Below, one piece after another: positions 2,976 to 21,567 of a stretch of DNA of 21,589 bases; the first letter of the stretch is position 1; every line of letters begins with the position of its first letter. Made by a program: the position numbers and the translations under genes. Source of the DNA: a virus. The stretch is taken from positions 1-21,589 of IMG/VR virus record IMGVR_UViG_3300037119_004758; one strand, given 5' to 3'. The notes under the pieces are model-generated. The model was not told the DNA's origin, did not search any database, and saw only the letters and a program-made list of their open reading frames with translations.

Positions 2976-3304
2976 CCAACCCGCAGCTGCGGCTGGAACT
3001 CGCCTACTGCGCGCCCCGCGGCATCCCCCACAGCTCGTTCTTGGAGTGGCCGCAGGCCGACCAGGACAAAGCCTTGTGGTGGTTCATCCACGAGCAGCAG
3101 GCGTGCGGGTCGTGCGGCACCCGGCCGGACGAATGGGACGAAGACGCGGGCGGCGACCCCGACGCGTACATCATGGAGCCGTACCTCTGCAAGGGCTGCC
3201 GGGTGAAAGCCGACGGCGAGGAATGGTACGAGAAGAACCGGAAGAACATCCCGAGGGGGACGCAGATGCGGATGCGCCGACCCGACCCCGTCGAGGCGGA
3301 CTGA
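2469..3304 (+). CDS. Tail assembly chaperone, long form made by -1 frameshift
   Basis: If ribosomes slip back one base on GGA AAA (zero-frame codons 2961-2966), decoding continues from 2966 in the -1 frame without a stop to TGA 3302-3304. The product is about 278 aa: 166 from the zero frame plus 112. The added part starts RSLTNPQLRLELAY, contains GIPHSSFLEW, and has two CxxC pairs (CGSCGTR and CKGC) that look like a zinc ribbon. This corresponds to the gpGT type of product, in which the extension binds the tail tube protein. The -1 frame has no convincing start of its own: the first candidate is a TTG at 3041 in the middle of the conserved-looking part. The stop overlaps the next ATG. Confidence 0.72.
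2960..2966 (+). promoter_or_regulatory. -1 ribosomal frameshift slippery heptamer
   Basis: The heptamer GGGAAAA is read in the zero frame as G GGA AAA, exactly the X XXY YYZ form that allows both tRNAs to re-pair after a -1 slip. It lies 6 nt before the zero-frame stop. A 12-bp palindrome (CCGCAGCTGCGG, 2981-2992) begins 14 nt after it and might form a small stimulatory hairpin, although many phage chaperone sites work without a strong structure. Confidence 0.75.
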
Positions 3305-3780
3305 TGCCGAGCGCGTGGCGGATCGTCAGCGCCGAACTCGTGCAGCGCGGCCGAACCGACCTCTCCTCCGGGTTGCGGGCGGCAGTGCGCCGCGAGGGCG
3401 CCGTCGCGCTCGCCGAGACGAAGGCGGCGTGGCTGACCGTCGACGTCACCAGCACCAAGGGCGGCATCGCACCCCCCGACAAATCCACCGGGCTCCGCGC
3501 CCGCGTGTCCGGCGCCACCAGAATTCAGACGACGATGACCGGCGTCCGGATCACCGTCGCCCCCGGCAAGGTCGACCCCCGCTACGGCCGCACCCTCCCC
3601 TGGTATTTGAACGGGAGCGGCAGGCCGTGGCGGCACCCCGTGTTCGGCCGCACCGCGAACCCGCAAGACTGGCAGATTCAACGCGGGCAAGAGGTGTTCT
3701 TCTCGACGATCGGCGGCCACGCCCCGGCGTTCCGGGCGGGCATCGAACGGGCGATGGAGGACGTCGCCCGACGATTCTGA
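3304..3780 (+). CDS. gp10-like tail-completion / neck protein
   Basis: The product has 158 aa. The ATG at 3304 shares a base with the stop of the frameshift product. An amphipathic, Arg/Ala-rich N-terminal helix (SSGLRAAVRREGAVALAETK) is followed by a strand region (RIQTTMTGVRITVAPGK). A conserved-looking stretch then reads RPWRHPVFGRTANPQDWQ, and a C-terminal helix (FRAGIERAMEDVARRF) closes the protein. The HPVFG...W element followed by a terminal helix is typical of HK97 gp10-like proteins that join head and tail. Its position after the chaperone instead of before the tube is somewhat unusual but does occur in actinophages. Confidence 0.6.
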   Translation: MPSAWRIVSAELVQRGRTDLSSGLRAAVRREGAVALAETKAAWLTVDVTSTKGGIAPPDKSTGLRARVSGATRIQTTMTGVRITVAPGKVDPRYGRTLPWYLNGSGRPWRHPVFGRTANPQDWQIQRGQEVFFSTIGGHAPAFRAGIERAMEDVARRF

Positions 3781-3793
3781 CCAGGGGAGCGGC

Positions 3794-4156
3794 ATGGCTG
3801 AGATCACGATGGTTATCAACGGGGAGCGGTTCTCGATCGGGAACGACCCGCAGAAGTTCACCGCCGAAGAACTCATCGCCGTCGAGCAGCACACCGGGAT
3901 GATGGTCACCGAGTGGGCGGAGAAACTCGCCGACGAGCGGATCAGCCCGAAGGCGTGGACGGCGCTCGCGTTCATCGCGGTGCGCCGCGCCGGCCGGATG
4001 GTCCGCTGGGATGACTTCGCGGCGACCCTGTCCGTGTACGACCTCGTCCAGGGCCTCGGCGGCATTCCCGACCCGCCCGCGGTCGTGCCGAACCGGGCGG
4101 AGCGTCGCGCGAAGCCGCAGCCGAAGACCGCGCCGGTGCACCCCGCCAGCGCGTGA
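3794..4156 (+). CDS. Second tail assembly chaperone-like protein
   Basis: This 120-aa protein has GGGGAG 6 nt before its ATG. It opens with a strand-turn pair (MAEITMVINGERFSIGND) and a helix (FTAEELIAVEQHTGMMVTEW), then a second helix (ALAFIAVRRAGRMVRWDDFA), and ends in a Pro/Lys/Ala tail. The pattern of a short beta hairpin, then a helix of the AIE-x-TGL-type, then a hydrophobic helix ending RRxG is what I associate with actinophage tail assembly chaperones encoded just before the tape measure gene. The window therefore has two chaperone candidates. The stop overlaps the next GTG, and I saw no slippery heptamer near its end. Confidence 0.6.
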   Translation: MAEITMVINGERFSIGNDPQKFTAEELIAVEQHTGMMVTEWAEKLADERISPKAWTALAFIAVRRAGRMVRWDDFAATLSVYDLVQGLGGIPDPPAVVPNRAERRAKPQPKTAPVHPASA

Positions 4157-4392
4157 CCCACGTCGACGCCTCGCACGCGGTCGGCCGCGACGAGTTCCGG
4201 GCGTGGCTCGCCGAGTACGGCATCGACCCCAGCGACGTCTACACGATCGGCGTCCGCTTCTGGTGCCGCGATGACGTCGTCGTCGCCGCCTTCGATGTCG
4301 AGTGGAGCCGAGGCCACTGCGATGCCCTGCCCATCACGGTGCTGTGGCCGACGGGGCTCCGCTCCTGGCCGCCGCTGACGCCTATCGAGTAA
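4153..4392 (+). CDS. Hypothetical protein upstream of the tape measure gene
   Basis: This 79-aa protein has its GTG start in the GTGA overlap with the previous gene. An N-terminal helix (DEFRAWLAEYGIDP) is followed by strands (YTIGVRFWCRDD, VVVAAFDVEW) and a Trp/Pro-rich end. It has one Cys in the first strand and another in RGHCDAL. No family is recognised. It sits in the -1 frame relative to the preceding chaperone-like gene, the arrangement of a chaperone extension, but with a normal overlapping start and no slippery run, so separate translation is more likely. Confidence 0.55.
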   Translation: MTHVDASHAVGRDEFRAWLAEYGIDPSDVYTIGVRFWCRDDVVVAAFDVEWSRGHCDALPITVLWPTGLRSWPPLTPIE

Positions 4393-4433
4393 CCCGTCCA
4401 CCGCCCCCGGAGTAGCTCGCGGAGGGGGGCGCT

Positions 4434-7400
4434 GTGGCGACTCTGCGATACGACGTCGACGTCGACACCAAACGCGCCGAAGCCCGCATCGGCGCGTTCG
4501 CGCTGCGAATGCGGAAGCAGATCAGCGACGCCATCAAGTCGCTGCCGGAGATCGAACTCGACGCGAACAGCACCAAGGCGCAGGTCGAGATCGCCCGCAT
4601 CCGCCGCGAGCTGAAGGAACTCTCGAGCAAGCGCATCGGCATCGACATCGACGCCAAAGCGGCGGAGGCCGAGCTTAAACGGCTCGGTGGGCAGCTCCGC
4701 GAACTGTCCGGTAAGTCCGGCAGCATCCAGGTCGACGCGGACGTCGCCTCCGCGCTGGCGGCGCTGAAACTCGTCGACAAGGAGGTCGACAAACTCGACG
4801 GGCGGAAGGCGACCGTCAAGGTCGACGTCGACCGCTCGTTGGGCGACAGCATCATCCAGGTGACGCGGCTCGCCGGCGCGTTGAAGGCCCTCACGCTCCC
4901 CGCCGCAGCGCTCGCGGTGGTGCCGCAACTCGCGTCGATCGGCAACGCCCTCATCGACGTGTCCGGCGCTGCCGGGTTGGTGCCCGCCGCTGTCGCGGTC
5001 GCGGGTGGCGCGATCGCCACGCTGGCCGTCGGTTTCGCGCACGTCACCGACGCGCTCGGCCCCGCCGGGACGCCGGCGCAGTTGAAGAAGGTCACCGAGG
5101 CGCTCGCGCTGTTGTCGCCGAACGCGCGCACCGCGGTTGAGGCGGTCCGCGGGTTCGCCGGGGCGTGGACCGACCTGCGGCTTGACGTGCAGCAGAAGCT
5201 GTTCGCGGGGATGTCTGCCGAGGTGAAAGACCTCGGCAAGGTCGCGCTCCCCCAGTTGCGGACGGGGCTCGGCGGGATCGCGGAGGAACTGAACCTCAGC
5301 GCCCGCGGCTTGCTCGACTGGGCGAAGCGGGGCAGCACGATCCGCGACGTCGGGGTGCTGTTCTTCGGGGTGAAGCAAACCCTCCACGAGCTCGTCCCGG
5401 CCGGCGCGAACGTGGCGCAGGCGTTCCTCGACATCGGTGTCGTCGGCATGAAATTCCTGCCGGGGCTGGCGGCGGAGGCGGAGAAGCTCACCGAGCGGTT
5501 CCGCAACTTCATCGGGGAGGCTCGCGAGTCGGGGAAGCTCCAAGAGTGGATCTCCACGGGGATCGACAAGCTCGCCGAGCTGGGCAAGATCGTCCTGAAC
5601 GTCGGGTCGGCGCTCGGCGCGTTCTTCAAGGCCGGCGCGGTCAGCGGCGCCGACTTCCTCGGCACCCTGCAGAAGGTCACCGGGGAGGTCGCGAAGTTCC
5701 TGAACAGCGCGGAGGGGCAGAACGCCCTCGTTGCGATCTTCCGCACGATCCGCGACGTCGTCGACGCGCTGCTGCCGGCGGTCATCGCGGTCGGGAAGGA
5801 AATCGCGGAGGGCATCGGCACCCTCGCGCCGAAGATTAAGCCGCTCGCGGAGGCGTTCGCCGACACGTTGAAAGCGGCGGCTCCGATGGTGGGGGTGCTC
5901 GCCGAATTGGCGTCGGCGGTCCTACCTCCGATCACCGCAGCGCTCGCCGTCATCGGCCCGTTCCTCGCGCCGATCGTCGTCGGGTTCGCCGCGTTCGCCC
6001 TCGCGTCGAAGGGCATCCTCGCCGTCGCGCAGTCGCTCGTCGCCGTGAAGACCGCGCTGATGGGCATCAGCGCCGCGAACGTCGTGCTCGGCGCCGTCAC
6101 CCTCGCGGCCGTCGGCCTCGCCGTGCTGTTCGATCAACTGCGGGACAAGTCGGGGGAGCTGGCGCAGAAGATCGTCGACGGGTCGATCACCATGCATCAG
6201 GCCATCGCCGAGGAGACCGCGCAGATCGAGCGGCGGAACCTCGCGATGGACGCGGCGACGACCGCCGCGAACGAGGGCATCGTCTCCTCCCGGGAAAGTG
6301 CCAGCGCTTCCGAGGTCAACGCCGAGGCCACCGCGAAGGTCACCGAGGAGCACAAGAAGCTCCTCGCGGCGATGGACCCGCTCACCCGGGCGCAGACCCA
6401 GGTACGGGAAGCGCAGACGGCGTTCAACGAGGCCGTCGCGGCGTTCGGCGCAGGTTCCCCAGCGGCCCAAGCCGCCGCGGGCGAGCTGGCGACCGCGAAC
6501 CAGCACCTCAAGGACATCACCCAGCAGACCGCGGACGCGACGAAAACCCTCGGCGACCGCATCGTGGAGACGTCGCAGCATGGCGCCGCCGCGGCGAACT
6601 CCCAGGTCGGCTACAAGCAGTCGCTGCTCGACCTGGCGGACGCGACGAAGCGGGCCGCCGCCGCCACGCGGGAGCACGGCGCCAGCTCGGATGAGGCGAC
6701 CAGGGCGAACCTCGCCGTCGAACAGGCGAGCCTGCGGGCCGCCGCCGCAGCGCAGAAGCTGGCGGAGGACAACGCGAGGGCGAGCGGCTCGACGAACGTC
6801 GCGGAGATCGGCGCGCAAGCCTACAAGGAGGAGTTGCTGCGGCAGGCGTCGACGATGACCGGCCCGTTGAAGCAGGCGCTCATCGACCAGGCCAACGGAT
6901 TGGACACCGCGAAGCGCGCGACGTCGACGGCGGAGATCCAGAGCCGCTTGTATAAGGACCAGTTGGGGTTGCTCGCCGGGCAGACCTCCGGCCCGTTGGC
7001 GGCGGCGCTGCGGGGCGCCATGCAGAACTTCGACACGCTCGGCGGCGCGCACGCCACCGCGCAGCAACGCGCGGAGGCGCAGAAAGCGGAACTGCTCCGG
7101 CTCGCCGCTATGGCGAGCGGCCCGCTCCGCGCGTCGCTGCTGGCGATGGCAGCTCAAATCAACACCCTCCCCGACGGGTCGTTCACGATCACCGGCACCG
7201 GGGTCATCAACCCCCTGCAAATCAGCAGCGGCACCGGCCGGGGTGCGTCGACGTTCGGGCTCGCCGAAGGCGGCGTCATCGGTCAGATGGCCGATGGCGG
7301 CGTCATGCCCGGCTACACCCCCGGCCGCGACGTGCACCGCTTCGTCAGCGCCACCGGGGGGATTCTGGACCTGGCCGGCGGTGAGCCGGTGATGCGCCCC

Positions 7401-8288
7401 GAGTTCGGCCGCGCCGTCGGCCACCAGTGGATCCACGCGGCGAACAAAGCGGCCCGCACCGGTGGTGTCGCCGGGGTGACGAGCTTCATCAGCCGCACCG
7501 CACCCCGCGGCCCCGGCGTCGAAGGGCGGCAGGGCGACGGCAGCGCATTCGCCCGAGGTGGTGTCGTCCCGCATCAGCGGCTCGCGTTCGGCGGGTACGT
7601 CGCCGCCGGCACGCAACCGTTCCCGCGGGTCGCGACCGAGTCGTACATCGCGGCCCGCAACAAGCTCGTCGCGATGGAAGCCGAGAAGATCAAAGCGCAG
7701 ATCAAGAAGTGGTTGGAGGCCGGCGGCAACGGCCTCGCGTTCGCGCGCACCCAAGTCGGCAAACCCTACATATGGGGCGCCAGCGGACCGGGCGGTTACG
7801 ACTGCTCCGGGTTCATGTCCGCGATCGTCAACGTGATGCGCGGCCGGTACCCCTACTCGCGGGTCGGGTCGACGGGGACGTTCCCGTGGGCGGGGTTCTC
7901 CCCCGGCCTCGGTGCCGGGTTGAACATCGGCGCGTTCCGCGGCAACCCCGGGCACATGGCGGGCACCATCGCCGGCGTCAACGTCGAGTCCGCCGGGTCG
8001 GTCGGTGTGCGAGTCGGTGGGCCGGTCGGCGCCACGAGTGGCATGTTCAACATCCGAGCGCACCTCGCCGACAAGGGCGGGTTGCTGCCCAGCGGGCACG
8101 CCGCGGTGAACCTGTCCGGCCGTGACGAGTACGTCGTCGCCCCGCAGACGGCTCAGACGATGGGGAGTACGTACAACGTGAGCGTGATCTTCCAGAACGC
8201 GATCAACGCGATGGATGACTCCCTCATGCGGCAGGCCGCCATCAAAGTCGCCGACGCGATCAAGCAGGTTGAGCGGAGCCGGTCGTGA
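4434..8288 (+). CDS. Tape measure protein with C-terminal NlpC/P60-type domain
   Basis: The 1284-aa protein sets tail length and is ejected with the DNA. GTG 4434 follows a GGAGGGGGG run. Residues 1-135 carry five short strand-helix units starting near residues 6, 40, 70, 98 and 128. Hydrophobic, probably membrane-active stretches lie near 148-205 and 485-565. Ala/Gln-rich coiled helices fill about 600-960, and a Gly-rich linker follows. Residues 1105-1200 resemble an NlpC/P60 cysteine peptidase: KPYIWGASGPGGYDCSG places the candidate Cys at 1124, and GHMAGT places His at 1174. This would let the incoming phage cut peptidoglycan. At about 1.5 angstrom per residue the tail would be roughly 190 nm. 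Confidence 0.92.
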   Translation: MATLRYDVDVDTKRAEARIGAFALRMRKQISDAIKSLPEIELDANSTKAQVEIARIRRELKELSSKRIGIDIDAKAAEAELKRLGGQLRELSGKSGSIQVDADVASALAALKLVDKEVDKLDGRKATVKVDVDRSLGDSIIQVTRLAGALKALTLPAAALAVVPQLASIGNALIDVSGAAGLVPAAVAVAGGAIATLAVGFAHVTDALGPAGTPAQLKKVTEALALLSPNARTAVEAVRGFAGAWTDLRLDVQQKLFAGMSAEVKDLGKVALPQLRTGLGGIAEELNLSARGLLDWAKRGSTIRDVGVLFFGVKQTLHELVPAGANVAQAFLDIGVVGMKFLPGLAAEAEKLTERFRNFIGEARESGKLQEWISTGIDKLAELGKIVLNVGSALGAFFKAGAVSGADFLGTLQKVTGEVAKFLNSAEGQNALVAIFRTIRDVVDALLPAVIAVGKEIAEGIGTLAPKIKPLAEAFADTLKAAAPMVGVLAELASAVLPPITAALAVIGPFLAPIVVGFAAFALASKGILAVAQSLVAVKTALMGISAANVVLGAVTLAAVGLAVLFDQLRDKSGELAQKIVDGSITMHQAIAEETAQIERRNLAMDAATTAANEGIVSSRESASASEVNAEATAKVTEEHKKLLAAMDPLTRAQTQVREAQTAFNEAVAAFGAGSPAAQAAAGELATANQHLKDITQQTADATKTLGDRIVETSQHGAAAANSQVGYKQSLLDLADATKRAAAATREHGASSDEATRANLAVEQASLRAAAAAQKLAEDNARASGSTNVAEIGAQAYKEELLRQASTMTGPLKQALIDQANGLDTAKRATSTAEIQSRLYKDQLGLLAGQTSGPLAAALRGAMQNFDTLGGAHATAQQRAEAQKAELLRLAAMASGPLRASLLAMAAQINTLPDGSFTITGTGVINPLQISSGTGRGASTFGLAEGGVIGQMADGGVMPGYTPGRDVHRFVSATGGILDLAGGEPVMRPEFGRAVGHQWIHAANKAARTGGVAGVTSFISRTAPRGPGVEGRQGDGSAFARGGVVPHQRLAFGGYVAAGTQPFPRVATESYIAARNKLVAMEAEKIKAQIKKWLEAGGNGLAFARTQVGKPYIWGASGPGGYDCSGFMSAIVNVMRGRYPYSRVGSTGTFPWAGFSPGLGAGLNIGAFRGNPGHMAGTIAGVNVESAGSVGVRVGGPVGATSGMFNIRAHLADKGGLLPSGHAAVNLSGRDEYVVAPQTAQTMGSTYNVSVIFQNAINAMDDSLMRQAAIKVADAIKQVERSRS

Positions 8289-14680: not shown

Positions 14681-14968
14681 GTGAAGACCGGTCAAACCGT
14701 CGCCGTCGTCGTCGCCATCGTCTGCATCGTCGTCGCGCTCGTCGCGTTCATCCTCGGCGTCCTCGCGATCACCGAACCCAACGACCAGCGCATCGACCAC
14801 CTCGGGATCTCCACGCTCGCGGTGTTCTCCTCCGCGATCCTCGGGCTCCTCGCGTTCCTCAAAGCCAACGCCGTGCAGAAGGACCTGCATAACGGGGTCG
14901 TCGAGGAAACCGTCGAACGCGCCGTGCGGAAGGTGCTCGACGAGCAGCAACGGAAGGCGGCGCCGTGA
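14681..14968 (+). CDS. Membrane protein with two helices next to endolysin, putative holin/antiholin
   Basis: This 95-aa protein starts at GTG 14681 with GGGGGG about 8 nt upstream. Helix one covers residues 6-30 (VAVVVAIVCIVVALVAFILG) and helix two about 42-62 (GISTLAVFSSAILGLLAF). The C-terminal third is a charged amphipathic helix (VQKDLHNGVVEETVERAV, KVLDEQQRK). A hydrophobic hairpin plus a charged cytoplasmic helix directly before an endolysin is typical of holins and holin partners. A clearer r1t-like holin lies after the endolysin, so this one may be the antiholin or a second pore former. GTGA overlap with the endolysin. Confidence 0.65.
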   Translation: MKTGQTVAVVVAIVCIVVALVAFILGVLAITEPNDQRIDHLGISTLAVFSSAILGLLAFLKANAVQKDLHNGVVEETVERAVRKVLDEQQRKAAP

Positions 14969-15855
14969 GGGTCACGTGGATGTTCGACGTCCTCAAAGCC
15001 GCGGGAGTGCCCGTCGCGCAGGCCCCCGGCTGGCAGGCCCGCGGGCACGGGGAGATGAGCGGCTGCACCGGCGTCCTCGGGCACCACACCGCAGGGCCCG
15101 CCCGCGGCAACGCCCCCAGCTACGGCGTCGTCCTCAACGGGCGGCCGGGGCTCGCGGGGCCGCTCGCGAATCTGTTCCTCGCCCGCGACGGAACGTGGAC
15201 GTGCATCGCGGCCGGCGCGGGCTGGCACGCCGGGACCGGGGGGCTGCCGTGGGTGCCCGCCAACCAGGGCAACCAGTACCTCATCGGCATCGAAGCGGAA
15301 TCGTCCGGGGTGCTGCAGAACGGCCAAGCGGACTGGACAGCGGAGCAGCTCGACAGCTACCCGCGTGGCGTCGCCGCGCTCCTCCAGCACATCGGGCACG
15401 ACGCCGACCGTTTCGCCGGGCACAAGGAATACACCACCCGCAAACCCGACCCGGCGAACTGGCCGGGTGGTATGGCCGGCTTCCGCGGGACCGTCGCGCA
15501 GCACCTCGCCGGGGCGCCAACCACAGCAGCGCCAAGGAAGACGACACACCTGGAGATGGTCGACATGTTGGTCGGGCAGGATCAGACAGACGGGCGGCTC
15601 TACCTCGTGTCGGGGAACTCCGCGCTGGAGTTCCCGCAAGGCGGGGGCGACCCGAAGGGCCGCGGCCACGGCAACCTGTACGCCGACATCCTCCTCGACA
15701 TGCTCGACCAGGCGTACCCGGACGGACCGAAGGCGCAGCTCGTCGCCCTCAACCACGACGTCGTCACCCGCATCCCACCGGCGTGGAGCTTCATCGACGG
15801 GTCGGCAGCCGGGACCACGAAAACCACGCCCGGCGAACAGGTCGCCAGGGGGTGA
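14965..15855 (+). CDS. Endolysin, N-acetylmuramoyl-L-alanine amidase (Amidase_2 type)
   Basis: This 296-aa enzyme cuts the amide between MurNAc and the first Ala of peptidoglycan to release progeny. The zinc site is readable: GHHTAG near residues 39-44 gives the first His, GHKEY gives His153 with the catalytic Lys154, and KPDP gives Asp162. GWHAG (His88) and the EAES strand (Glu110) match the rest of the fold. The catalytic domain spans about 1-185. After a short linker (PTTAAPRKT), residues 200-260 (VGQDQTDGRLYLVSGNSA, then helices) are probably the wall-binding part. No signal peptide is present, so it needs a holin. It overlaps genes on both sides by 4 nt. Confidence 0.9.
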   Translation: MRVTWMFDVLKAAGVPVAQAPGWQARGHGEMSGCTGVLGHHTAGPARGNAPSYGVVLNGRPGLAGPLANLFLARDGTWTCIAAGAGWHAGTGGLPWVPANQGNQYLIGIEAESSGVLQNGQADWTAEQLDSYPRGVAALLQHIGHDADRFAGHKEYTTRKPDPANWPGGMAGFRGTVAQHLAGAPTTAAPRKTTHLEMVDMLVGQDQTDGRLYLVSGNSALEFPQGGGDPKGRGHGNLYADILLDMLDQAYPDGPKAQLVALNHDVVTRIPPAWSFIDGSAAGTTKTTPGEQVARG

Positions 15856-16076: not shown

Positions 16077-16379
16077 ATGCTGACCGCGGAGTTCTGGAAG
16101 AACACCGCCGAACGCGCGGTGAAAACGTTCGCGCAAGCATTGCTCGCCGTGCTCGTCGTCGAGCTCGCCACGACCACCGTCGCCGGGGTCGACTGGAAAA
16201 CGATCCTGCTCACCGCGGCCGGCGCGACGCTGCTGTCCGTATTGACATCCGTCGCCGGGGTGGCGGTCGGCCCGAGCGGCTCCCCGTCACTGGTCGTCGA
16301 CACGAACGCGACAGCCGCGACGCTGCCGCTCGCGGAGCCCCCACCACCGACACCCGCGCCGCCGACCGTCTCGCCCTGA
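16077..16379 (+). CDS. Holin, r1t-like family
   Basis: This 100-aa protein follows a GAGGAGGG site by about 9 nt. The N-terminus (EFWKNTAERAVKTFAQALLA) is the signature I associate with r1t-type holins. Membrane helix one is about 18-37 and helix two about 43-67 (ILLTAAGATLLSVLTSVAG), joined by GVDWKT. The tail after residue 70 is Pro-rich and polar. It would form the pore that lets the endolysin reach the wall and sets the time of lysis. It is the last gene of the rightward cluster; its stop is 1 nt from the stop of the convergent minus-strand gene. Confidence 0.88.
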   Translation: MLTAEFWKNTAERAVKTFAQALLAVLVVELATTTVAGVDWKTILLTAAGATLLSVLTSVAGVAVGPSGSPSLVVDTNATAATLPLAEPPPPTPAPPTVSP

Positions 16380-17771: not shown

Positions 17772-17851
17772 GACCGCCGCCCGTTGGCGCAGTACCAGCA
17801 GAACTTGTCGAGGCGCCGGCCGTGCGGGCAGTACCCGATGCTCTTGCCCAT
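17768..17851 (-). CDS. 27-aa Cys-containing peptide
   Basis: ATG 17851 has AGGAGA 6 nt upstream on the minus strand, a strong site for so short a gene. The product reads MGKSIGYCPHGRRLDKFCWY and then CANGRRS: Cys-Pro-His and CxxC spaced ten residues apart form a compact CxH...CxxC metal knot. It ends in GTGA shared with the next gene. Its first codons and ribosome-binding site belong to the duplicated junction also found at 18311-18366. Confidence 0.5.
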   Translation of the reverse strand: MGKSIGYCPHGRRLDKFCWYCANGRRS

Positions 17852-17899
17852 GTCCTGTCTCCTGTCATTTCCGTCGGGACAGCAACCGCCGCCCGAGCC
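17843..17899. repeat. Direct repeat copy A (duplicated gene junction)
   Basis: This segment matches 18311-18366. The core 17861-17884 is identical over 24 nt to 18328-18351, followed by a 15-nt stretch with two mismatches, and preceded by an identical 12-nt block covering ATGGGCAAG on the minus strand. It holds an upstream gene's last codons, a stop, a ribosome-binding site and a new start. Confidence 0.85.
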
Positions 17900-18091: not shown

Positions 18092-18319
18092 TCACAGCCC
18101 CTTCCGGTGGTGGCGGGTGACGGTGTCCTTCGTGCTCTGCACGACCACGTCCTTCGTGGTGAGCGGCCCGCCGTGGCCCCTCCACCTGCCCCAGTGCTGC
18201 TTCTCCAGATCCTCGAACCTGGCCTCGGCCGTGTCCTTATCCCCGGCGTCGTGAGCCTGGCGGTACTCGGATTCGAGGTGCGCCCGGTGCGTCTCGAATG
18301 CCTTCCTGTTCTTGCCCAT
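18092..18319 (-). CDS. Hypothetical charged helical protein (75 aa)
   Basis: ATG 18319 has AGGGGAGAG about 4 nt upstream. Residues 1-45 are one long charged helix (NRKAFETHRAHLESEYRQAH, then KDTAEARFEDLEKQHWGRW), possibly a coiled coil. The end is basic (TKDTVTRHHRKGL). No catalytic or metal motif is seen. Its start region, MGKN, is a near copy of the start of the 27-aa gene at 17851 (MGKS). Function unknown. Confidence 0.6.
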   Translation of the reverse strand: MGKNRKAFETHRAHLESEYRQAHDAGDKDTAEARFEDLEKQHWGRWRGHGGPLTTKDVVVQSTKDTVTRHHRKGL

Positions 18320-18366
18320 GTCTCTCCCCTGTCATTTCCGTCGGGACAGCAGACGCCGCCCGAGCC
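18311..18366. repeat. Direct repeat copy B (duplicated gene junction)
   Basis: Second copy of the junction repeat, about 467 nt from copy A. Here it joins the end of the membrane zinc-knuckle gene to the start of the 75-aa gene. Same orientation, so a tandem duplication or copying by recombination is likely. Confidence 0.85.
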
Positions 18367-18541
18367 GTGTCCTCGAACCCTCGCCGCCGCACCACCAGCA
18401 CGACCGCCACGCGGTGCGCTGCCCTGGTTGGCGGGCTTTACCGCTGCCGTGGCATCCGCGGCAGGTGACGTTCGGGTAAACCACGCACAACCCGACGTAG
18501 ATCACACCCGCGACTGCTAGCGCAAGCGTCAGAGTGTTCAT
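18332..18541 (-). CDS. Membrane-anchored protein with two DnaJ-like CxxCxGxG motifs
   Basis: This 69-aa protein starts at ATG 18541 behind a GGGGGG run and is the first gene of the small-gene operon. Residues 2-22 are a membrane helix (NTLTLALAVAGVIYVGLCVV). Then come CRGCHGSGK and, about 17 residues on, CWWCGGEG. Two CxxC(H/G)G(S/E)G copies are the half-zinc-finger unit of DnaJ and related proteins; a pair can bind one zinc. The basic C-terminus is LGRRLLSRRK. A cytosolic zinc knuckle held at the membrane could recruit a partner; which one is not visible. Confidence 0.65.
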   Translation of the reverse strand: MNTLTLALAVAGVIYVGLCVVYPNVTCRGCHGSGKARQPGQRTAWRSCWWCGGEGSRTRLGRRLLSRRK

Positions 18542-18573
18542 CCGACACCCCCCGAAGCTCCACCAGTGGGGGG

Positions 18574-18680
18574 CGCTAGAACCGCTAACACCGCTAAACC
18601 GCAGGTCACAGACCTGCCCTGTGCGCTAGCGTCAGCGCTAGACCTAGCGCAGGCTGCCGTCGAAGCTAGGGGCATCGCTA
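18574..18680. repeat. Iteron cluster with nested palindromes (candidate clt, origin or operator)
   Basis: Three adjacent 9-mers, CGCTAGAAC, CGCTAACAC and CGCTAAACC, start at 18574, 18583 and 18592. Further CGCTA copies are at 18624, 18636 and 18676, and inverse copies (TAGCG) at 18627 and 18645. Within them are two perfect inverted repeats: GCAGGTC/GACCTGC (18601-18617, 3-nt spacer) and TGCGCTAG/CTAGCGCA (18622-18651). The block occupies nearly all of the 136-nt gap between the translocase stop and the first small gene. Repeats next to a TraB-type gene are where actinomycete plasmids keep the clt transfer locus; replication iterons or an operator for the small-gene operon are the other readings. 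Confidence 0.65.
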
Positions 18681-20807
18681 GGCCCCAACCCGGTCGTCGG
18701 GCTCGTCCAACGCCTCGAAAAGCTCCGCGCGCAGCACCCCGTAGCGGTTGCCGGTCTCCCCGTCCAAGCCCTCGGCCCACACCTGCCGGGTCTTCACCCC
18801 GAACGGCTTCAACGCCGCCGACAACTGCGCGGGCTCCCACCCCGCGTACCGCTCGGGCCACCGGTCCGCCAACCGCGAGCACAGTACGTCGGAGTGGGCC
18901 TTCTTGTCCGTCGCCATCACCGTCGCCAAGTCAGCGGCGACCGAGTAGGCGGGTGGGGTCGCCATCGGAACCAGCCCCGAAGCCATCCCGTCCAACGTGC
19001 CCGCACGCTCCCGCAGCAGCTTCCCGCGCAGGCAGATCGCCTCAGCGTCCAGGCCCTCCGCCAGATACGTGCGGACCGCGCCGGCCAGCACCTCCAAGCC
19101 GTCATCACCCGTGCCGCGGAGCAGGCCGCAGCCCTTCACGTCCGGGCTCAGCAAGCTCGCGTCCAAGCCCTCGCCGTAGGCGCCGGCCCCGAGGATGGCT
19201 TCGGAGGCGTGCATCGTCGTGACCCGCAGCGCGAACTTCACGACGAACTGATCGCGGAACCCCGTCGGGGTGCTCTTCGAGTCCGGTTTCTGTGTCGCCG
19301 CGACTGTGATGATCCCCGTCGACGGGCCCACCTTCACCAGGTCCGTCAGCACCTCGTCGAGTTCCGCGCCGTACGTCTTGTGCCTGAACGCGCGCTGCAC
19401 CTCGTCGATGACGAACAGGATCAGCGGCATCCCCGCGCTCCGCGTCCGCGACAGTTCCTCGGTGAGCTTCCCCTGGGGGCACACCTCCGCGGGCAGCGTG
19501 CGGAGCGTGCGGTTACGCCGGTCGACCTCCGCGAGGAGTTCCTTCGCTCCGTCCAACAGGGCGAGCACCGGGTCGACGCCGGTGTCCGGGTCGGGCCGGT
19601 CGCCGTAGAACAGGCGGTGCGCGACGTGCCGGAACGGCACCCAGTCGGGGCTGCCCTTCATGTCGTGGATGCGGATCTGCACATGCGGGTCCAACGCCGC
19701 AGCCAGCGCGGGGAGCCGAGCGGAGAACGTCTTCCCCTGCCTCGGCACGGCACCGACCAGCATCGACTGCCACAGCAGGCACAGCGGCACGACCACACCG
19801 CGCTCGTTGACGCCGAACGGCCACGGCTCCCAGAAGTTGACACGACCCGTGTCAATCAGCGGGGACATACCAGCGGGCACCGACAGTGGGTCCACGTCGC
19901 ACACCCACAGCGCAACCCTGCGGGCTGAGCCTGACGCGCCGCGGACGCGGGACAGGAACACTTGCCGCTCATCCACGTCCAACCCCGACGCGATCTTCGC
20001 GCGCCTGCTCATCGCGTCGTCGGCGGTCACCCCGAACGGCAGGTCGATGACCACGCGGTAGCCGTTCGCGTCGCGGTGGATCGGCGTCGCGAACGTGATC
20101 GGGGAATCCTCACCGCACAACTTCGCCACCGTGAACGCGCGAGTCACGATCCCCGGCGACAGCTTCCGGGTGGTGTTCGGCACCACCGCCGCGGGGATCA
20201 GTGGCTTACCGGGTGTCGCGCCGAACCTGCCCAGGGCGAACAACGCCACGAACAGGACGGGGATGTGCACCCACCACGCGGTGACCACCCAACCCACCAC
20301 CGCACCCGCCGCGAGGACAGCGCCAACGACGCCGACGATGAGCGCGCGGCGATGCACCGCCGCGTCACGCTCCTTCCGCAGCTTCAAGTAGTCGGCGGTG
20401 TTCGCCTTGTCACGCTCCGCCAACCTCAGCGGCCGAGCCTCCCAGTCGAACACCCACGCCGTGACGATCGCCAACAGCCGCCACAACCCGCGGGGCGCGT
20501 ACCAACCCGCCAGGGCGAGGTACCGGGGCGAGCGGACCGCGTGGAACTGCGACACATGCCGCACCTGCCCCACGGCCCACGTCACGGCCTGCTTCCGCTG
20601 CTCGGCTTCCCGCAGCCATGGCGCCACCACCGGCCGGCGTTCGGGGGCTTCCACCTGCCACGGCGCCGGCACCGGGGCAGCGCGGATCGCCACCTCCGCA
20701 GCCGGTCGCACCGGGAGGTCCACGAGTTCGGCGTCCACCACGGGGCCCGCGACTTCCAACTCGGCGCTCACAGCGTCGCCGTCGGCTGCGTCATCAGCGC
20801 TCGCCAC
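18678..20807 (-). CDS. FtsK/SpoIIIE/TraB-like DNA translocase
   Basis: This protein of about 709 aa is an ATP-driven pump for double-stranded DNA. Residues 1-60 are acidic/Pro-rich, and a membrane hairpin lies at about 155-193 (RALIVGVVGAVLAAGAVVGW, then VLFVALFAL). The motor has Walker A GAVPRQGKT (352-360) and Walker B ILFVIDEV (463-470), followed by GIITVAATQKPDS, FALRVTTMHASEAILG and KGCGLLRGT, the usual FtsK motif order. The C-terminus (640-700: LADRWPERYAGW, LKPFGVKTRQVW) resembles a winged helix for DNA recognition. GTG 20807 is preferred for its GGGAGG site; GTG 20771 (GTGA overlap, 697 aa) and GTG 20819 are alternatives. Family and neighbours suggest TraB/TraSA-type transfer rather than cell division. 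Confidence 0.85.
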   Translation of the reverse strand: MASADDAADGDAVSAELEVAGPVVDAELVDLPVRPAAEVAIRAAPVPAPWQVEAPERRPVVAPWLREAEQRKQAVTWAVGQVRHVSQFHAVRSPRYLALAGWYAPRGLWRLLAIVTAWVFDWEARPLRLAERDKANTADYLKLRKERDAAVHRRALIVGVVGAVLAAGAVVGWVVTAWWVHIPVLFVALFALGRFGATPGKPLIPAAVVPNTTRKLSPGIVTRAFTVAKLCGEDSPITFATPIHRDANGYRVVIDLPFGVTADDAMSRRAKIASGLDVDERQVFLSRVRGASGSARRVALWVCDVDPLSVPAGMSPLIDTGRVNFWEPWPFGVNERGVVVPLCLLWQSMLVGAVPRQGKTFSARLPALAAALDPHVQIRIHDMKGSPDWVPFRHVAHRLFYGDRPDPDTGVDPVLALLDGAKELLAEVDRRNRTLRTLPAEVCPQGKLTEELSRTRSAGMPLILFVIDEVQRAFRHKTYGAELDEVLTDLVKVGPSTGIITVAATQKPDSKSTPTGFRDQFVVKFALRVTTMHASEAILGAGAYGEGLDASLLSPDVKGCGLLRGTGDDGLEVLAGAVRTYLAEGLDAEAICLRGKLLRERAGTLDGMASGLVPMATPPAYSVAADLATVMATDKKAHSDVLCSRLADRWPERYAGWEPAQLSAALKPFGVKTRQVWAEGLDGETGNRYGVLRAELFEALDEPDDRVGA

Positions 20808-21010
20808 GATGCCTCCCACCTACGGAACTGCTGCAACTCCAACTCCTCACGGCGCAACTGCAGCCGGTACATCACCCACCGGAACCCGAGCAGCACCGCC
20901 CACCCACCAGCCACACCGAAGCCGACCCACCCGCCACCCGCATAGGTCATCGCCCCGGTTGAGCCGACGACGAGGAGTGCTGTGTCGGGGACGTCACCCT
21001 GGTTGGTCAC
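20768..21010 (-). CDS. Small membrane protein of the transfer operon
   Basis: This 80-aa protein has GTG 21010 in a GTGA overlap. Residues 10-45 contain two closely spaced hydrophobic stretches (ALLVVGSTGAMTYAGGG and VGFGVAGGWAVLLGF). Then comes a charged helix (YRLQLRREELELQQFRRW) and a short polar end. Small membrane proteins between the DUF2637 gene and the FtsK-like gene are a constant part of actinomycete transfer operons, where some are called Spd (plasmid spread) proteins. No sequence-specific match is claimed. Confidence 0.62.
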   Translation of the reverse strand: MTNQGDVPDTALLVVGSTGAMTYAGGGWVGFGVAGGWAVLLGFRWVMYRLQLRREELELQQFRRWEASWRALMTQPTATL

Positions 21011-21567
21011 GACACACCCACCGAGTGCAGAGGCTCGCGCGTGACATCCGGGTCACGCTGCCGGTCACGCTGACGCGCCTTCCGCTCCCGCGCCAGTCGC
21101 TTCGCCCGGTCCTCGCTGGACTCCTCGACCGTGACCGGCGCTGGCGTGGGTGGCGTGACCTTCGGCGTGACCTTGCGCGGTGCACGTGCAGCCTGGGATT
21201 TCACGGGCTGCCGGCGAGCCAACGACGCCATCACCACAACCGCCTCAACCGCCAGGACGAGCAGGACGGACAGCCACCACTCCTCGCCGTAGGCCACGAG
21301 TAGTCGGACAGCGTGGGTCAGGTTCACCACCGCCGCAGCCCCGCAGATCACCGTCATCACGACGGCGCGGATCGCCCGCGTCCACGGACCCGTGATCGGG
21401 ACACGGGGCCACAGGTGCAGCGACACGGGAACCAGCACGGTGGCGAACACGCCAGCGGCGATACGCGCGGAGCCGTCCGAGGCCGCCCACGCGACGTTCG
21501 CAGCACCGGATGCGAGGACGCCGACGGTCAGTGCGACGTTCGGACTGGTGAACTTCACCTGTACCAC
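21007..21567 (-). CDS. DUF2637/SpdB-like four-helix membrane protein
   Basis: This 186-aa protein starts at GTG 21567 with AGGAGGG 6 nt upstream (21574-21580 on the plus strand). Membrane helices are near residues 10-28, 37-55, 64-85 and 99-117. The third and fourth carry NLTHAVRLLVAYGEEWWLSV and LAVEAVVVMASLARR, close to the H-x6-G-x-xWL...P/L-x-D/E-x-LV pattern I recall for DUF2637. After residue 120 comes a Lys/Arg/Pro-rich cytoplasmic tail with a long charged helix (SSEDRAKRLARERKARQRDR). In AICEs and Streptomyces plasmids DUF2637 genes lie just upstream of the FtsK-like transfer gene, as here. Confidence 0.62.
   Translation of the reverse strand: MVQVKFTSPNVALTVGVLASGAANVAWAASDGSARIAAGVFATVLVPVSLHLWPRVPITGPWTRAIRAVVMTVICGAAAVVNLTHAVRLLVAYGEEWWLSVLLVLAVEAVVVMASLARRQPVKSQAARAPRKVTPKVTPPTPAPVTVEESSEDRAKRLARERKARQRDRQRDPDVTREPLHSVGVS

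Follow-up and report, generated by a model that had tools for sequence, protein, structure and literature searches.

A candidate clt-like repeat array beside the FtsK/TraB-like translocase gene of an actinobacterial virus

The virus record IMGVR_UViG_3300037119_004758 is a 21.6-kb sequence from an actinobacterial virus, analyzed here in full (positions 1–21,589, hereafter the window). The right end of the window is a co-directional module on the minus strand, consisting of small genes, a gene for an FtsK/TraB-like DNA translocase (ftsK), a gap with a dense array of short repeats, and a gene for a small CxxC protein (Table 1). Because ftsK is encoded on the minus strand, the array comes right after its stop codon, on the 3' side; it is also 5' of the next co-directional gene.

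The repeat array

Three contiguous 9-mers that begin with CGCTA start at 18574, 18583 and 18592, and five additional copies are found as CGCTA (18624, 18636 and 18676) or TAGCG (18627 and 18645). There are also two perfect inverted repeats, CGCTAGACCTAGCG (18636–18649) and CAGGTCACAGACCTG (18602–18616). The original prediction, made from the letters of the window, had listed these elements, and all of them are present. The region 18574–18680 has eight CGCTA/TAGCG motifs, compared to a maximum of one (mean 0.04) in other 107-nt stretches of the window and no more than three per any 107-nt stretch in 200 first-order Markov genomes. A high frequency of CGCTA in other gaps, which had been named as evidence against a special role, was thus not found. 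Seven of the eight CTAG sites in the window fall within 18517–18681. Read on the strand of ftsK, the array holds the register seen in related elements – half-site 1, site 2, site 3, core and right arm.

The gap contains a 45-codon open reading frame whose stop codon overlaps the following gene in an ATGA, and the frame is open both in the window and in its closest sequenced relative, the fragment L002 (translocase 92% identical, gap shared). If this were a small overlapping gene, the repeats would be codon artefacts. However, differences by codon position are 8/7/3 in this frame and 16/9/41 in ftsK, GC content at third codon positions (GC3) is 0.56 as opposed to 0.90 in ftsK, and only five of 81 relatives have a gap in which a frame stays open for 44 codons or more. 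The small-gene reading was rejected on these grounds and is given almost no weight, in agreement with the prediction that coding does not explain the repeat density. A search of 18200–18900 against Rfam gave zero matches. A switch in strand composition (GC skew), which had been proposed as a check, was looked for at the site and is absent.

Table 1. Features of the window, with the evidence for each where given
Feature	Position	Strand	Basis
Tape measure gene	4434–8288	+	protein family searches
Amidase gene	14965–15855	+	protein family searches
r1t-type holin gene	16077–16379	+	protein family searches
CxxC zinc-motif protein, small, membrane-anchored, 69 aa, conserved beside the element	18332–18541	-	
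Complete non-coding element, ftsK to next gene, 136 bp	18542–18677	-	GC3, substitution pattern
Right arm: three 9-bp direct repeats, with TAGCG on the minus strand	18574–18600	-	sequence; right-arm counterpart in relatives
Core TGTGACCTGCGG, part of the 18602–18616 inverted repeat CAGGTCacaGACCTG	18599–18610	-	also present in post-traB gaps of plasmids, pSVH1 and pSG5 among them
Site 3, GCTAGC; its centre exactly 15 bp away from site 2	18625–18630	-	
Site 2, palindrome GCTAGGTCTAGC, which is the family's consensus full site	18637–18648	-	
Site 1, half only, CCTAGC; other half decayed	18665–18670	-	distance of 22 bp between the dyads of sites 1 and 2
FtsK/TraB-like DNA translocase, 713 aa, predicted C-terminal winged helix	18678–20819	-	
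Beta-hairpin wing of the translocase, residues 678–696; bears residues covarying with repeat bases	18732–18788	-	structure model; mutual-information scan
Upstream of ftsK, two small genes: one of 80 aa, one of 186 aa with three transmembrane-like segments	20768–21567	-	

Conservation of the array and covariation with the translocase

The gap was compared across ca. 140 relatives (80 loci gathered from prokaryote genomes and 56 from viral contigs, designated by L numbers), which are integrative elements, plasmids and tailed phages. A repeat array is borne by the gap just past the same FtsK/TraB-like gene, 0–110 nt beyond the stop codon in the window and most relatives, and it is retained where both flanking genes are the same; the loss in such relatives that would have spoken against the prediction was not seen. 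In 140 loci, GCTA/TAGC motifs were counted in 100-bp bins over a span of -3 to +4 kb around the stop codon of the translocase gene. The bin directly after the stop has 4.25 motifs per 100 bp, and most of the remaining bins have 0.1–0.4. The order of elements in relatives is palindrome 1, palindrome 2, a shorter CTAG site, core and right arm. The centres of palindromes 1 and 2 are 22 bp apart in 63 of 67 loci, and palindrome 2 is 15 bp from the CTAG site in 63 of 66.

Other clades have different repeats at the same position. In a large viral clade, 29 of 42 loci have GGTTTCG/CGAAACC motifs with fixed offsets. In L092–L141 (viral), these motifs lie 0–140 bp past ftsK at offsets 0, +33 (reverse), +41, +74 and +81, and the C-terminal signature of the translocase is TRQLTIRECCGGAKGLR; this clade offers a separate, independent system in which the wing code described below can be tested.

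The translocase matches phrog_1358 (E=1.7e-18). Homologues are found in 61 plasmid records, most of them from Streptomyces, and identity to annotated plasmid FtsK proteins is ca. 36% across 90% of its length. The Pfam family FtsK_SpoIIIE is missed by the window copy and reached by the relatives L009, L087 and L103. A Walker-A-like sequence, GAVPRQGKT, departs from the strict pattern, and two hydrophobic, transmembrane-like segments are found in the N-terminal part, at residues 161 and 184. In an AlphaFold model, the C-terminal domain consists of three helices followed by a beta hairpin (predicted local distance difference test score, pLDDT, 79), an arrangement like that of a winged helix. A fold search with this domain returned generic winged helices, with the FtsK gamma domain not among the listed matches; Pfam FtsK_gamma was not found among the translocase C-terminal domains, and a sequence search of the PDB gave chance matches only.

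The repeat sequence shifts together with this predicted C-terminal winged-helix domain. Residue 693, the third of the NRRG motif, predicts the base before CTA in all 81 of the loci with CTA-type palindromes, with zero exceptions: R, K and Y go with G; M, I, T, N, A and an NLKG variant with T; and Q with C. In a mutual-information (MI) scan of 662 alignment columns against this base, column 693 ranked first, with a normalized MI of 0.456 and a runner-up at 0.21. For the centre of the palindrome, the top five columns were 681, 690, 689, 684 and 685. All of the covarying columns map to the hairpin that forms the wing in the structure model.

On a tree built from the motor part of the protein only, the base type changed ten times, and 9 of 9 independent pairs were concordant with a change of residue (p=0.004). 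The rule at 693 was fixed before it was applied to held-out loci, which were new loci from two further genome searches. All 30 of those in the automated test obey it, and the total is 40 of 40 unambiguous loci when ten SRIG-type proteins are included, which the first pattern had not caught and which were read afterwards; L186 was tied. Independent pairs in the held-out set were concordant in 8 of 8 cases (p=0.008). The same MI scan was run on the CxxC protein and a primase-polymerase (prim-pol) as controls, and no comparable covariation was found, the signal being weak: the best normalized MI values were 0.155 and 0.263 for prim-pol, versus 0.456 and 0.715 for the translocase.

The gene just downstream of the array is co-directional, so the palindromes might be an operator or promoter, bound by a regulator or by the translocase, that controls the CxxC gene. 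This is considered very improbable – the gap sits within a co-directional run past ftsK, no sigma-70-like promoter or terminator was found in a scan that does not cover all actinobacterial promoters, the array of L004 is downstream of its CxxC gene, and the covariation implicates the translocase.

A putative loading site for the translocase

The array is quite probably clt-like, a site that the FtsK/TraB-like translocase encoded directly upstream recognizes and uses for loading. This reading of the sequence is supported by its match in position to clt of plasmid pSVH1 and by the covariation of residues and bases between the translocase C-terminal domain and the repeats. The clt interpretation in the original prediction is strengthened accordingly, as is its suggestion that the specificity could be new: the motif differs from the known GACCCGGA type. 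The C-terminal domains of a translocase oligomer would bind the spaced half-sites (GCTAG..CTAGC), and the motor would load at or beside the strand-oriented core TGACCTGC. The translocase could then pump the circular, double-stranded DNA of the element, unprocessed, across the septum or a hyphal contact and into an adjacent compartment or cell, and the phage, as a phage-plasmid, would gain a conjugation-like means of spread in addition to its virions.

Recognition by the translocase is what the covariation points to, and it says nothing of purpose. The site might serve partition, septum clearance, intramycelial spreading of a phage-plasmid, or polarity, as a signal like KOPS (FtsK-orienting polar sequences). 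Chromosomal FtsK employs similar sites in segregation, and the adjacent small membrane CxxC protein could act in spreading. These uses are thought unlikely, since there is one compact array beside the gene, at the position of clt in pSVH1, unlike dispersed polarity sequences, and since the relatives are mostly mobile elements (loci like those of actinomycete integrative and conjugative elements, or AICEs, and plasmids), in which clt is the known role.

Replication iterons had been put forward as an equal candidate, with the array as an origin bound by an initiator of the Rep or prim-pol type. Streptomyces plasmids do have iteron origins with direct and inverted repeats (PMC3583192), and a prim-pol gene is found ca. 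0.4–6 kb downstream in some relatives. DUF3631, of RepAM-type initiators, is weakly matched by 13 of the 47 translocase C-terminal domains in the alignment (best E 6.7e-6), with that of L023 matching the C-terminal part of DUF3631. This likeness suggests that the translocase and a replication initiator have a DNA-binding domain in common, so that the site could, in some elements, also serve an initiator. The repeat type, however, tracks the translocase rather than prim-pol; the C-terminal domain is carried by no other gene within the fetched flanks; and several phages (the window, L002, L004, L007 and L087) retain the array with no prim-pol match near ftsK. With no comparable covariation in prim-pol or the small neighbouring protein, iterons are judged improbable and no longer an equal candidate, although the record of the window is incomplete and an initiator encoded farther away may exist.

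Several observations weigh against a clt-like loading site. No binding or transfer experiment on this translocase family was found in the literature. The modelled C-terminal domain resembles winged helices weakly (best Z 5.4 in the fold search), and the predicted reader in the window is the beta wing, whereas TraB of pSVH1 recognizes its repeats via helix alpha3 according to an overview of known clt loci (PMC3583192). Column 693 was chosen in the first set of loci, therefore the held-out set alone tests it freely, and some clades in that set have relatives in the first one. The array of the window is itself partly degenerate, with site 1 reduced to a half-site. Finally, the CxxC gene directly follows ftsK in L004 and L139, with the L004 array displaced as described above.

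If the array is a loading site, it would be a transfer site previously undescribed for these mobile elements and now testable. The covariation makes explicit, testable predictions as to which translocase recognizes which element, from residue 693 for the base before CTA and from residues 681–690 for the palindrome centre. It is also a hint that whole transfer modules are carried by tailed phages, uniting infection and conjugation in one element.

Gene context and comparison with known clt loci

The CxxC protein has DnaJ-like motifs, and the gap that separates its gene from ftsK is 136–147 bp long in most relatives. Two near-identical, duplicated stretches of the window, 17846–17884 and 18320–18352, surround the start of two small genes whose products begin with MGK. 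Upstream of ftsK, the pair of small genes gave zero matches in a Pfam search, and no similarity was found between the 186-aa protein and the DUF2637 protein of pPaSha2. Phage collections searched with the ftsK protein and DNA returned nothing. In L002, the region 3200–4800 has extended, degenerate repeats of the GTGACCGT type and is probably a repetitive tail or fibre gene.

Two distant relatives are plasmids with phage genes. The circular, 41.9-kb pPaSha2 of Pseudonocardia alni encodes a terminase, portal, capsid, tape measure, holin and FtsK together; both it and pPoc2 of P. oceani match a Pfam capsid family and encode homologues of the tape measure in the window. Because of these relatives, the window is probably kin to the Pseudonocardia phage-plasmids; its record is an incomplete fragment. 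The P. oceani phage-like element was found twice, as plasmid pPoc2 and on a chromosome contig (L007 and L008).

In pSVH1, the TraB recognition sequences (TRS, GACCCGGA) are at 8158, 8180, 8212 and 8233, right past traB (stop 8142), and are followed by CTGACCTGCGCAAAC. The post-traB gaps of nine plasmids (L142, L208–L214 and L006), including pSVH1 and pSG5, all contain a core in one orientation, seven with exact TGACCTGC and the rest with slight variants, while the plasmid-specific repeats differ. The core is ca. 141–146 bp from the stop codon in pSVH1 and six other plasmids. A core matrix was derived from the plasmid gaps only and applied to 136 independent gaps: a score of at least 10 bits was reached in 23.5% on the plus strand, compared with 5.9% on the opposite strand and 4.6% in the background. 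The core in the window scores 11.3 bits. There may be a general two-part grammar of FtsK-driven transfer in actinobacteria, with element-specific half-sites that are read by a short beta-wing code and flank a common, strand-oriented core, across integrative elements, plasmids and several lineages of tailed phages. This remains tentative, at somewhat less than even chances; if true, some phages would also spread by conjugation-like pumping, and the compatibility of elements would be predictable from sequence.

The clt loci of pWTY27, pJV1 and pIJ101 also have short direct and inverted repeats, but these are unrelated in sequence (TGACACC, CCGCACA[C/G][C/G] and GC/AAAC); clt of pWTY27 adjoins traA and overlaps it slightly (PMC3583192). 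The sps palindrome of SpdA is likewise short and repeated on Streptomyces plasmids, but its sequence, CGTCACGTGACG, is not that of the window, and it is bound by SpdA rather than a translocase (PMC4170104). Many of the relatives are chromosomal and probably AICE-like, with an FtsK-type Tra protein and often a prim-pol, whereas the window is a phage; for the AICE pSAM2, no clt motif had been described according to PMC9513070.

A close parallel is clt of pSVH1, which is also just 3' of an FtsK-like translocase gene, with several short repeats (22 bp between the first two), a same-strand CTGACCTGCG core after them, and a cognate translocase with a C-terminal winged helix, as predicted in the window. 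The window differs in that its repeats are GCTAG/CTAGC half-sites, largely palindromic, and in that the array is carried by a tailed phage. Based on the gaps of pSVH1 and the other plasmids and on the core score, the element in the window resembles an experimentally established clt in place, organization and core, with different repeats.
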